From Agrococcus sp. Marseille-P2731 (GTDB lineage Bacteria; Actinomycetota; Actinomycetes; Actinomycetales; Microbacteriaceae): a stretch of 64,000 nt of DNA. The stretch's first letter is position 1. Each line of letters opens with the position of its first letter. The notes under the pieces were generated by a model that was not told where the DNA came from, did no database searches, and was given only the letters and a program-made list of their open reading frames with translations. Shown here in pieces: positions 46,479 through 50,083 of this stretch. The position numbers were made by a program, and so were the translations under genes. Location: the NCBI RefSeq assembly GCF_900117395.1, contig NZ_FPEG01000001.1, positions 62,001 through 126,000 on the forward strand, in the 5' to 3' direction.

Positions 46479-46530
46479 CGTGCGCCCGCCGACACGCGCC
46501 GTCGGTCCTCCGCCGGTCGAGGCCTCCCTT

Positions 46531-46770
46531 GGTCGAGGAGCGCGCGGCCGCAGGCCGCACCCCTCCGTCGGTCGAGGAGCGCGCGGCCGCAGGCCGCACC
46601 CCTCCGTTGGTCGAGGAGCGCGCGGCCTCGGGCCGCACGCGTCTCGAGACCTCGGCCATGGTTTCGTGACGCGAGCGCCTGCGGCGCGCGCGCCTCAACC
46701 AGCGGGTGACGCGAGCGCCTGCGGCGCGCGCTCCTCAACCAGCGGGTGACGCGAGCGCCTCAGGCGCTGC
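46531..46770. repeat. Array of short palindromic repeats, two orientations
   Basis: Three 39-43-base units beginning GGTCGAGGAGCGCGCGGCC stand head to tail at 46531, 46570 and 46609. Then units in the opposite orientation of the form TGACGCGAGCGCCTGCGGCG...CTCAACCAGCGGG follow at 46667-46706 and 46707-46746, with a partial copy that runs into the stop codon of the next gene (46760). Each unit can fold on itself. It is a repetitive intergenic element of a kind common in Microbacteriaceae, here clustered between pcrA and the LPQTG gene. Confidence 0.7.
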
Positions 46771-48838
46771 GGCGTCGACCGAGCACGAGGCCCGCACCCG
46801 CGAGCAGCAGGAGCAGCGCGCCGGCCATCAGCATGACGGGCGCGTCGGCGCCGGTCTGCGGCAGCGTGCCGTCGCCGCCGACCTGGCCGCCCGACGAGCC
46901 TGCGCCCTGACCGTCGTCGCCCTGACCGTCGTCGCCCTGGCCCGCGCCGGGGTCGGTCGGCTCGCCGGGCGCCGTCGGCTCGGCCGGCTCAGCCGGCACC
47001 GTCGGCTCGCCGGGCTCGGTCGGGTCGACCGGTGCCACCGCCGCGCACTCGTCGCCCGCCGCGATCCGCAGCGAGACACCCTCATGCGCTGTGTCCGAGA
47101 TCCACGCGACCGTCGGCACCGCGGCCGGGTCGGTCTCGCACCAGTCGATCGCGAGGCCCTCGTTGGTGTAGCCGGCCTCCATGGTCGGCGCCGCGTGCAC
47201 GGCGCGCTGCGCCGTCAGCTGACCATCGACGAAGGCGAGCTCCGCGTGGCGGTTGTCGCACGCCTCGTCGCACAGCGCCCACAGGGCATTGCCGCCCGCG
47301 GCCCAGTCGAGGCCCATGACGACCTCGAGCGCCGCGCCCGGGTCGGCCTCCTGCAGCAGCGTGATCTCGCCCGATGCCTCGAGCACCGCGACGTAGACCA
47401 TGCCGGTCTGCTCGACCGCGAAGGCGAAGACGCCGCCGGAGTGCTCGCCGTAGGCGTCAGGGTCATACGCAGCGCCGGATGCGTCGAGCACGCCCAGTCG
47501 GGTCGCGTCGGCGTCCGAGATCCACTCGATCGCCTCGGGCCCGAGGTTCGCGCCCAGCTCGCCCAGCACCGAGGTGAGGTTCCACTCGTGCGTCGTGGTC
47601 GAGGTGCCGTCGGCGCCGAGCTCGACGCGCAGGATCGACGGGCGGCTGACGCTCTTGGCCGCGTTGTCGCGCTCCGTCGCCAGGAAGATCGCGCCGTCGC
47701 CGGCGACCGAGATGCCCTCGGCGTCGGGCTGCCCCGACCCATCCGCGTAGGTCGGGATCCAGGACTGCGCGATCGAGAAGACGCCGTCAGCGCCCTCGGT
47801 CAGCTCGAAGATCTCGGCGTTGTCGTTGTTCACGGCGAACAGCGTGCCGTCGGCCGCGTAGTCGAGGCCCGACATGTCGTCACCCCACGTGCCGGCGGCC
47901 ACCGCATCCGTCACCGTCTGGGCGAACGGCCACGGCTCGGCCTCGACGACCGGCTCGTCGACCGTCGAGCAGTCGTTGACGAGCTCGAAGGTCGACGTCG
48001 CCGCCTGCACGAAGCCGCCGGTCATGTCGGCGCAGCGCGCGTAGGTGACGTCCGCGTGCGACTCCCAGCTGAACTGGTCGACGACCGCGCCAGCAGCGTC
48101 GCGCAGGGTCACGGAGTCGCCGCCGCCGAGGCCGAAGTCGGTGGTGTAGGCGGTGCCGTCGGTGATGATCGCGCGGTAGCCGCCCGACTCGATCGTCGCG
48201 CCCTCCGGCAGCACGATCGGCTCGTGCTCCGGGTCGCCGTCGACGAGCGTCCAGCCAGAGAGATCGACCGTGTTCACGGTGTCGGTGTTCGCGAGCTCGA
48301 CCCAGTCGCCGCGCGCGTCGCCGTTCGACTCGACCTCGTTGATCACGATCGGCGACGCGGCGAAGCGCGCGACGTTCGCGGCGCCGGGCGTCGGCTCGGT
48401 CGGGCCGAAGGCGCCGGTGCCATCGGGCACGCGCCCCTCGCTGATCACATGCTCGCTCCAGGTGTGCTCGGCGACGAGCGTGCCGCTCGCGGTGAAGATG
48501 CGCACCGCGTCCTGCTTGCCGAGGCCCATGCCTGCGAGCGTGTCGGGCTCGAAGGCGACGATCTCGCCGGGCTCGATCACGGTGCCGGCCGGGAGCTCGA
48601 CGAACTCGGCGTCGGGCGCATCCTTGCTGTCGCGCGCGATCCAGCCCGACATGTCGACGGGCGCGGAGCCGATGTTCGTCAGCTCGAAGAAGTCGGGGGC
48701 GCCCTCAGCGCTGTTGGACTGCACCTCGTTGATGACGATGTCGGTGTCGGCCGCGGATGCGGCGGGGGCGATGAGGAGGGATGCTGCGAGCGCCGCGGGG
48801 ATCGCGGCGGCGAGCATGGCTGGGGTGCGACGGCGCAT
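46760..48838 (-). CDS. LPQTG cell-wall protein with two lamin-tail domains and a phytase/esterase-like domain
   Basis: This 692-residue surface protein has a signal peptide (to about residue 29, ASAAD), two lamin-tail domains (residues about 32-150 and 163-290; both open with IVINEVxSN), then a beta-propeller-like domain of the SdiA-regulated / esterase-like-phytase kind (about 310-600; GDDMSGLDYAADGTLFAVNNDNAEIF, ISVAGDGAIFLATERDN). A Pro/Glu/Gly-rich linker leads to LPQTG (659-663), a helix and RRRSA, the sortase sorting signal. It is therefore displayed on the cell wall. Lamin-tail domains often accompany secreted nucleases or phosphatases. A Pho-box-like repeat precedes the promoter, suggesting a role in phosphate scavenging. 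The stop lies inside a repeat copy. Confidence 0.85.
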   Translation of the reverse strand: MRRRTPAMLAAAIPAALAASLLIAPAASAADTDIVINEVQSNSAEGAPDFFELTNIGSAPVDMSGWIARDSKDAPDAEFVELPAGTVIEPGEIVAFEPDTLAGMGLGKQDAVRIFTASGTLVAEHTWSEHVISEGRVPDGTGAFGPTEPTPGAANVARFAASPIVINEVESNGDARGDWVELANTDTVNTVDLSGWTLVDGDPEHEPIVLPEGATIESGGYRAIITDGTAYTTDFGLGGGDSVTLRDAAGAVVDQFSWESHADVTYARCADMTGGFVQAATSTFELVNDCSTVDEPVVEAEPWPFAQTVTDAVAAGTWGDDMSGLDYAADGTLFAVNNDNAEIFELTEGADGVFSIAQSWIPTYADGSGQPDAEGISVAGDGAIFLATERDNAAKSVSRPSILRVELGADGTSTTTHEWNLTSVLGELGANLGPEAIEWISDADATRLGVLDASGAAYDPDAYGEHSGGVFAFAVEQTGMVYVAVLEASGEITLLQEADPGAALEVVMGLDWAAGGNALWALCDEACDNRHAELAFVDGQLTAQRAVHAAPTMEAGYTNEGLAIDWCETDPAAVPTVAWISDTAHEGVSLRIAAGDECAAVAPVDPTEPGEPTVPAEPAEPTAPGEPTDPGAGQGDDGQGDDGQGAGSSGGQVGGDGTLPQTGADAPVMLMAGALLLLLAGAGLVLGRRRSA

Positions 48839-48867
48839 GGGGTTCCTTCGATGGGTGGGACCCGCTC

Positions 48868-48921
48868 AGCCAACGCGTGCCGGACGACGTGCAGGTGCTC
48901 CCCGGCGAACGCCAGGTGAAC
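48868..48921 (-). promoter_or_regulatory. Pho-box-like direct repeats and promoter of the LPQTG gene
   Basis: Reading leftward, GTTCACC-TGGC (48921-48911), GTTCGCC-GGGG (48910-48900) and AGCACCT-GCAC (48899-48889) are three 11-base direct-repeat units. The first two match the PhoP unit known from Streptomyces (seven conserved bases like GTTCACC plus four variable). TTGGCT (48873-48868) lies about 20 bases further as -10. The ATG is at 48838 behind AAGGAA. Confidence 0.6.
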
Positions 48922-48986: not shown

Positions 48987-49958
48987 TCAGCGCTGGATCC
49001 GCCGCCACAGGTCGGGGTGGTCGGCGAAGACCGCCTCCAGGCCGAGCTCGGCGAGCATCCCCCACTCCTGCTGCCAGTTCCCCCACGCGGCCGGATGCTC
49101 GCCCAGCCGATGCTCGGGCTCGAGGAAGGCGTTCTCGGGCCGCAGCGTCCAGGTGATCGTGCCGAGGCCAGCCGCGCGCGCACGCTCGACCACGTCGCTC
49201 GTGCGCAGCTCGCCGCCGCTGCGGTCGAAGAGCACCGACTTCGCGACGCTGATGGCGTCCACCCGGGCACCGAGCGCAGCGAGGCCCGCGTCGCTGCGCT
49301 GCTCGGCATAGGTGGTGGATGCGGAGGGCCCGTCGACCAGGTCGGCGGCGGTGCCGTCCTCCTCCATGAGGTAGACCAGCCGGGCCTCGACCCCGGCTGC
49401 GCGCACCTCGTGCAGCGCCGCCTCCTCGAACGACTCGACCGTCAGCGCGCCGGGCGTCGCCCACCGGGTGCCGGCCACCGCATCCGCCACCATCGCCGCG
49501 AGCGGCAGGCCGATCGCTGCGTGATGGCTGGCGTGCTTGAGCTCGGCGACGACATCGAGCCCGGTCTGCTCGGCGATCGCGAGCAGCTCGGTGAAGCGCA
49601 GGATGCCCTCAGCGCCGTCGCGTCGCGCGCTCGCCGGTCGCAGCGCCGGCAGTCGCTCGCGAGCGCGGAGCGTCGCCACCTCCGACCACGCGAAGTCCTC
49701 GACGAACCAGCCGGTGAGCCGGGTGCCGTCGATCACCTCGGTGCGACGCCGATCGGCAAACTCCGGCCGACTCGCGACGTCGGTCGTCTCGCCGAGCTCG
49801 TTGTCGTGGCGCACGACGAGCACGCCGTCACGCGTGGCGACGAGATCGGGCTCCACAGCATCAGCGCCCAGCTGCGCTGCGAGGCGCACCGCCGTCTCGG
49901 TGTGCTCGGGCGCCCAGCCGGAGGCGCCGCGGTGGGCGATGACGCGCGTCGGATGCAC
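48987..49958 (-). CDS. Glycerophosphodiester phosphodiesterase family protein
   Basis: This 323-residue enzyme of the GDPD TIM-barrel fold hydrolyses glycerophosphodiesters or related lipids. AHRGASGWAPEHTETA (residues 8-23) carries the catalytic His-Arg and the metal Glu, EPDLVATRDGVLVVRHD (about 36-52) the Glu/Asp metal ligands and the second His, and WTLRPENAFLEPEHRLG the C-terminal Trp segment. No signal peptide is seen, so it is cytoplasmic or membrane-associated. The GTG at 49958 follows TAGCCT by six bases (leaderless). It is next to the Pho-box-linked surface protein and, with glpD in the window, may help use glycerol phosphodiesters. Confidence 0.88.
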   Translation of the reverse strand: MHPTRVIAHRGASGWAPEHTETAVRLAAQLGADAVEPDLVATRDGVLVVRHDNELGETTDVASRPEFADRRRTEVIDGTRLTGWFVEDFAWSEVATLRARERLPALRPASARRDGAEGILRFTELLAIAEQTGLDVVAELKHASHHAAIGLPLAAMVADAVAGTRWATPGALTVESFEEAALHEVRAAGVEARLVYLMEEDGTAADLVDGPSASTTYAEQRSDAGLAALGARVDAISVAKSVLFDRSGGELRTSDVVERARAAGLGTITWTLRPENAFLEPEHRLGEHPAAWGNWQQEWGMLAELGLEAVFADHPDLWRRIQR

Positions 49959-49970: not shown

Positions 49971-50083
49971 GCGGCGGTGCGCGGTGGGCGAACGGCCCGT
50001 GATCCACAGCAAAAACCGACGGTCGCTCGATACGCTGACCGTGTCCGTCATCACGACGGCCACACCATCTTGGAGGAAACCCC

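Follow-up and report, generated by a model that had tools for sequence, protein, structure and literature searches.

We report here that a gene in the genome of Agrococcus sp. Marseille-P2731 encodes a wall-anchored protein, composed of two lamin-tail domains (LTDs) and a beta-propeller, which is very probably produced upon depletion of phosphate. The gene is located in a 64,000-nucleotide stretch of DNA, referred to here as the window, that corresponds to positions 62001-126000 of the contig C3 (C3:62001-126000). What looks like a Pho box is kept ahead of relatives of this gene in many actinobacteria, and the gene is therefore very probably induced by phosphate starvation. Judged from its sequence, Pho control of a phosphorus-related surface protein can be regarded as highly likely, and we infer a role in phosphorus scavenging at the cell surface, by enzymatic activity or by binding; that the propeller is catalytic is at best an even bet. 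As a predicted Pho regulon member the gene has not been described as such in the literature searched. The open-licence literature searched contained nothing tying an actinobacterial LTD-propeller protein to phosphate and no match for lamin tail domain and phytase-like together, although an earlier report is possible.

The box is composed of three direct repeat units (GTTCACCTGGC, GTTCGCCGGGG and AGCACCTGCAC, read on the minus strand from 48921 to 48889) and begins 83 bases ahead of the ATG, so that tandem 11-base units with a GTTCACC core are present upstream of the gene as in members of the Pho regulon. Units 1 and 2 represent the sole exact match to GTTCRCC-N4-GTTCRCC in the window. With up to two mismatches the window contains five matches, against a mean of 2.45 in shuffled sequences, and five were reached in 12 of 100 shuffles; such matches are thus common by chance, and as far as the window itself is concerned the exact match alone is informative. 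Among seven Agrococcus sequences, including that of the window, GTTCAC of unit 1 and parts of unit 2 are invariant; the third unit is degenerate, yet its GCACC is invariant across the same seven sequences. The probable -10 hexamer TTGGCT is found at offset 48, counted from the start of the box, and 19 bases past the third heptamer, in agreement with the approximately 20 bases given in an earlier note on this DNA.

The same site occurs at pstS, both in this genome and in the genus. In the genome itself, exact matches to GTTCRYC-N4-GTTCRYC are found at three distinct places (five including mirrored copies, see below), which are pstSCAB, a glycosyltransferase gene and the wall-protein gene. Allowing for one mismatch yields 21 matches (mirrored copies counted) versus three for the reversed control, and this set includes a site ahead of a secreted 5'-nucleotidase with cell-wall-binding repeats. 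Exact matches to GTTCRCC-N4-GTTCRCC number 46 in the 24 genus genomes analysed, compared to none for the reversed control, with three genomes containing none; once the mirrored contig is counted singly, 44 distinct sites are left. Most of these (38 of the 44) could be assigned: 21 are located ahead of pstS, nine ahead of a glycosyltransferase gene, four ahead of the wall-protein gene and one ahead of a glycerophosphodiesterase (GDPD) gene, one belongs to a secreted protein with a weak match to the endonuclease/exonuclease/phosphatase family (21.9 bits, cut-off 24.5), and two lie at loci that carry phnD or a HAD gene. All 21 pstS promoters contain a TANNNT hexamer at an offset of exactly 49 bases relative to the start of the box, and all nine glycosyltransferase promoters one at 49 or 50 bases. 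Because of this distribution among genes and the fixed offset of the -10 hexamer at pstS and the glycosyltransferase, the genus-wide 11-base site is taken to be the predicted site of the Pho regulator.

A scoring matrix built solely from 30 pstS and glycosyltransferase sites, with those of the wall-protein gene excluded, ranks the wall-protein gene first among the 47 genes of the window (21.1), followed by the adjoining GDPD gene (8.9) and, at 2.2, the next best gene. When the 250 bases upstream of the orthologues were scored, 15 of 16 genomes proved to hold a site that no more than 2 of 5549 random 250-mers could match.

The regulator expected for such a site is encoded in the same genome, where phoU, a histidine kinase and a RegX3-type response regulator are located together at C3:3144-5752. 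The response regulator is highly similar to RegX3 of Mycobacterium tuberculosis (2oqr; E 4.6e-100), and the C-terminal stretches LTRGQLIDRVWG and DTKTLDVHVKRLR are identical; the predicted Pho two-component system is thus of the SenX3-RegX3 type. The GTTCACC motif is given as the most conserved motif, in an 11-base unit, for Streptomyces coelicolor, with SenX3-RegX3 as the Pho pair of Mycobacterium smegmatis, in the pertinent parts of PMC4415409, and 11-base direct repeats with a GTTCACC core are described for Pho boxes in those of PMC7866108. The Agrococcus site resembles this known regulon (PhoR-PhoP in Streptomyces, SenX3-RegX3 in mycobacteria) in its repeats, in being shared with pstS, in the RegX3-type regulator near phoU and in the roughly 20 bases between the third heptamer and the -10 hexamer. 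The earlier note had read the repeats as a PhoP-activated promoter. This reading finds strong support in the sequence with respect to Pho control, given the site at pstS, its conservation at the gene across many genera and the presence of the regulator; the regulator in this genome is of the SenX3-RegX3 type, the counterpart of PhoR-PhoP of Streptomyces. Coordinates, repeats, order of domains, LPQTG anchor and the GDPD neighbour upstream were all as that note had described them.

The association extends well beyond the genus. We scanned one genome per species, which gave 150 propeller relatives, of which 80 loci were kept and 78, mostly actinobacterial, were usable; a locus was counted as positive if the best site of the whole locus, considering both strands, fell within a range from 300 bases upstream to just beyond the start of the gene. 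With the 11-base period 53 of the 78 loci are positive, compared to 1-13 of 78 with eleven other periods, and the best site of the locus was found at only 5 of the 331 neighbouring genes. At least one positive was found for 24 of 34 genus or bin labels. An earlier form of this test, which included all 80 loci and used an upstream window of slightly different extent, placed the site first in 52 of 80. The site is first in 43 of 49 relatives with at least two LTDs, in 9 of 21 with one and in 1 of 8 with none, by our tally. A loose anchor pattern is present at the C-terminus of 31 of the 78 relatives. No shared gene neighbourhood accompanies the protein: among 62 of 79 neighbour proteins from 40 selected loci the commonest family occurred in only three, and operon or cluster context was consequently rejected as a clue to function. 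It is thus the box, and not a gene cluster, that accompanies the gene. No viral relatives were found with six peptide patterns.

Several observations weigh against Pho control of this gene or its relatives, or limit the comparison. The -10 hexamer of the wall-protein gene in the Agrococcus orthologues is TTNNNT at 48 bases, compared to TANNNT at 49 bases in the pstS promoters and thus one base nearer, and the third unit of the box is degenerate. One orthologue (G045) fails the matrix test, with 145 of 5549 random stretches being equally good, and for six of the 44 genus sites no Pho gene is evident: two are located upstream of eno, on the opposite strand (G004 and G019), three are in G008, including one that reads as lying inside a coding region, and one is in G018. 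In the wider test set, gene starts were determined by a signal-peptide heuristic, and Curtobacterium is over-represented, contributing 19 of the 78 loci, 18 of them positive. The box is mostly absent at relatives with one or no LTD. Labels without a positive include Dietzia (0/3), Embleya, Frankia, Parafrankia, Kribbella, Winogradskya and Frondihabitans; Amycolatopsis (1/5) and Corynebacterium (3/7) are partly positive, and none of three loci from Gemmatimonadaceae or Terriglobia bins is (a fourth non-actinobacterial locus was among the two dropped). Among the 53 positive promoters the strict TANNNT is rare (four at offset 49, three at 27); with a looser hexamer, chosen post hoc and without a control, a single helical phase is favoured, as 20 of 41 lie at offsets of 5 modulo 11 (27, 38, 49, 60), a count drawn from the 50 promoters whose best site scores at least 11.

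The protein itself is a predicted LPXTG sortase substrate, which is recognized by the anchor profiles PF00746 (Gram_pos_anchor; 22.5 bits, cut-off 20, E 1.1e-4) and TIGR01167 (26.0 bits, cut-off 15.9). The lamin-tail profile PF00932 matches in two stretches (106.1 bits, cut-off 34.3, E 1.6e-30), the best of which, the second domain, comprises residues 160-259. For the propeller, PF13449 reaches 28.4 bits for the whole protein (E 1.9e-6) and 31.3 bits for the domain alone (cut-off 27.6) and covers only profile positions 6-136 of 284. The claim of the earlier note that an esterase-like-phytase domain is present therefore stands insofar as the cut-off is passed, if barely and with only the first half of the profile. 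Among 50 homologous propellers, PF13449 matches 45 and PF06977 matches 22 at E 0.01.

Because domains were mutually uncertain in a model of the whole protein (pTM 0.48), a separate prediction was made for the propeller; based on an alignment that included 49 relatives, it reached a pLDDT of 95.9 and a pTM of 0.93. Five blades are counted by our reading of the DSSP strands in this model. A VIA-align comparison identified YjiK (3qqz) as the closest fold (Z 22.4, root mean square deviation 2.8 over 234 residues, 18% identity), followed by glutaminyl cyclases (Z 19.8-20.6) and NHL domains (Z up to 18.3), all among the best 50 matches listed. NHL domains are six-bladed. YjiK, a SdiA-regulated propeller (PF06977), differs from the wall protein in that its solved chain of 243 residues comprises one propeller without a lamin-tail or anchor part. 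Sequence searches of solved structures gave no match below E 0.048 for the whole protein; the profile of the propeller yielded short matches only, most of them to designed Pizza propellers, with 3qqz at E 0.21. Residues invariant in the 50 sequences include, in propeller numbering, S26, G27, N41, D75-A-E-G78, E92-R93, N134, G136, E138, E179, D227 and N262-E-G264 (E77, E92 and E138 being E374, E389 and E435 of the full-length protein). Since D75-E77, E138 and E263 are read as belonging to the first strands of three blades in the predicted model, a metal site may fairly be placed at the mouth of the propeller tunnel.

Taken together, these features are best explained by the following scenario, in which the gene belongs to the Pho regulon. 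Upon phosphate scarcity SenX3 would phosphorylate RegX3, as known for this family of regulators, and RegX3 would bind head-to-tail on the 11-base repeats and recruit RNA polymerase to the weak -10 hexamer. The product would be exported and then anchored by sortase through its LPQTG motif. Its LTDs would probably hold a phosphorus-containing polymer, e.g. extracellular DNA, and the propeller would cleave or capture phosphate esters, the invariant Glu, Asp, Asn and Arg residues being suggestive of a metal site. Of these elements the sequence shows the box, its occurrence at pstS as well, its conservation with the gene, the regulator genes and the order of domains, to which a predicted fold is added; binding by the regulator, induction, the ligand and catalysis are proposals.

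The most serious alternative differs from this scenario in its last step alone: the protein might be a Pho-regulated but non-enzymatic surface receptor or envelope protein, whose propeller and LTDs associate with a polymer, be it extracellular DNA, teichoic acid or teichuronic acid, and leave it uncleaved. We regard this as a real possibility, if the less probable one. It would agree with the nearest solved fold being YjiK and not a known phosphatase, and the parts of PMC4486849 relevant here discuss lamin-tail domains as DNA-binding accessories of secreted DNases. Another gene with the box, the glycosyltransferase, is perhaps an envelope gene as well; it might function in the synthesis of glycolipids in place of phospholipids. 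We know of no function for YjiK itself, and this counts against an enzymatic step. On the other hand, the invariant acidic, Asn and Arg residues, spread over several blades in the 50 sequences, are more reminiscent of a metal or active site than of a neutral binding face.

That the propeller is a true beta-propeller phytase (BPP) releasing phosphate from phytate, as might be concluded from the name of PF13449 ('Esterase-like activity of phytase') and its domain score above the cut-off, seems improbable. No other phytase profile was found for the protein at E 0.001 or for the 50 homologous propellers at E 0.01, and no phytase chain was among the best 50 matches listed in each of three structure listings, which says nothing beyond those lists. 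Moreover, beta-propeller phytases have six blades, compared to the five read from our model. A secreted phytase, SCO7697, is included among the phosphate-response genes of S. coelicolor in the sections of PMC3282765 and PMC2267785 concerned, in line with such an enzyme being part of the regulon. As far as the profiles go, the name phytase thus derives solely from a Pfam label. The surface phosphate-scavenging enzyme proposed in the earlier note is reduced accordingly to a phosphate-related role at the surface, which is still the best inference.

Two further explanations concern the repeats. Another OmpR-type regulator with 11-base spacing, such as MtrA or GlnR, could bind them, in which case the gene would not respond to phosphate; such regulators also use tandem sites, but the same GTTCACC pair with a -10 hexamer at a fixed offset at pstS in 21 genomes renders this very unlikely, as does the match of GTTCACC to the S. 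coelicolor PHO box in the part of PMC4415409 that presents it. Chance occurrence in a GC-rich genome, to which the shuffled two-mismatch matches would point, is virtually incompatible with the absence of exact matches from the reversed control of the genus, with conservation at gene starts that the 11-base period reveals and other periods scarcely do, and with the matrix ranking.

Returning to a Pho-controlled surface protein with a phosphorus-related role, a broader generalization can be formulated, which we consider rather unlikely in its entirety: proteins with at least two LTDs and a five-bladed propeller might be widespread, unrecognized, often wall-anchored phosphoesterases of the actinobacterial Pho regulon, unrelated to BPP, PhoA, PhoD and PhoX, in which the LTDs hold extracellular DNA or a phosphate polymer at the surface and a metal-bearing propeller cleaves it. 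To our knowledge, what is understood of phosphorus scavenging in actinobacteria comes from a small number of secreted enzymes. The wide distribution of this surface protein, together with the Pho box as its most constant companion, provides strong grounds to seek a phosphorus-related activity that would be new, and makes PF13449, a Pfam label whose meaning is unclear, directly testable.

Among systems described so far, lamin-tail domains are linked to phosphorus-rich polymers in exported proteins such as the LTD-containing secreted nucleases ExeM and NucH; in contrast to these, the wall protein has no nuclease domain match and features a propeller in that place. The protein nsp7010 of the cyanobacterium Nodularia, annotated as an 'atypical alkaline phosphatase (esterase-like activity of phytase family protein)', is listed in a stimulon of phosphorus limitation (PMC9846622). 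It is comparable in its PF13449 label and in its induction by phosphate limitation; lamin is never mentioned in the main text of that paper. By analogy, a PF13449-type protein of this kind fits a phosphate role and is no proof of activity. Psip1 and PhoX are propeller phosphatases tied to phosphorus-poor conditions, six-bladed and with PhoX-like metal residues according to the portions of PMC11098088 on these enzymes; the wall protein differs from them in having no PhoX profile among its listed matches and, by our reading of the model, five blades. A lamin-tail protein of Corynebacterium glutamicum is named a putative cell-surface protein in the passage of PMC12021427 that deals with it.

Table 1. 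Location of the features discussed in the text (window positions unless a locus is given)
Feature	Position	Strand	Basis or remark
Wall-anchored LTD-LTD-propeller protein, 692 aa, ATG start	46760..48838	-	Open reading frame and Pfam
Signal peptide region, residues 1-29 (approximate)	48752..48838	-	Sequence; helix at 12-23 of the model, where confidence is low; putative cleavage site
Two lamin-tail domains, residues ~31-259	48062..48748	-	PF00932; limits of the first from relatives
Beta-propeller, residues 302-597	47048..47935	-	Predicted model; partial PF13449 match
LPQTG sortase motif, residues 659-663	46850..46864	-	Followed by hydrophobic stretch, then basic tail
Pho box, three 11-base direct repeat units, GTTCACC/GTTCGCC/AGCACCT	48889..48921	-	Sequence
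Individual units of the box	48921-48911, 48910-48900, 48899-48889	-	
Probable -10 hexamer TTGGCT	48868..48873	-	TTNNNT invariant in seven Agrococcus sequences
GDPD gene, next upstream, same strand	48987..49958	-	PF03009, 2.7e-31
Weaker Pho-box-like triple repeat at GDPD, GATCACG/GTTCGCC/GCGCACC	49972..50004	-	Matrix score second of 47 window genes
Glycosyltransferase with exact Pho box, 9 Agrococcus genomes	L052 2429-2550; L091, L094, L096, L099, L108, L115, L118, L125		

The wall-protein gene is followed downstream by a pcrA/uvrD helicase gene, and short direct repeats (GTCGAGGAGCGCGCGGCCGCAGGCCGCACCCCTCCGT and similar) are found between the two (window 46500-46760). A full-length or partial orthologue is present in 11 of the 24 genus genomes and is missing between pcrA and the GDPD gene in G002. 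The number of LTDs varies, with two in the window copy and in G005 (L146), and three in G004 and G001.

At the adjoining GDPD gene the putative -10 hexamer TAGCCT (49970-49965) sits close to the GTG start, which suggests a leaderless transcript that is possibly Pho-controlled. Of the orthologous promoters 22 of 24 could be read (no start motif was found for two), and only that of G002 contains the exact box. The site of G002 was equalled by 1 of 4000 random stretches and that of the window genome by 19 of 4000, compared to at least 99 of 4000 for each of the other 20. The GDPD gene was thus rejected as an equally firm Pho gene, its box being weak in 20 of 22 orthologous promoters.

The contig carrying the window looks palindromic from position 1 to approximately 393,990, because at least six features are mirrored on the other strand with coordinates that sum to 393,991. 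This is probably an assembly artefact, and the mirrored contig is a likely cause of the contamination estimate of 7.69%.

Among the other genes with a Pho box, the glycosyltransferase promoters have their -10 hexamer a few bases 5' of a GTG. The two enolase sites (L093, L119) comprise an exact box on the opposite strand without a -10 hexamer at the usual offset. Finally, a one-mismatch box is located about 90 bases 5' of the ATG of a repetitive surface-type protein with VDVLAND-type repeats and no Pfam match (L054, site 6089, minus strand).

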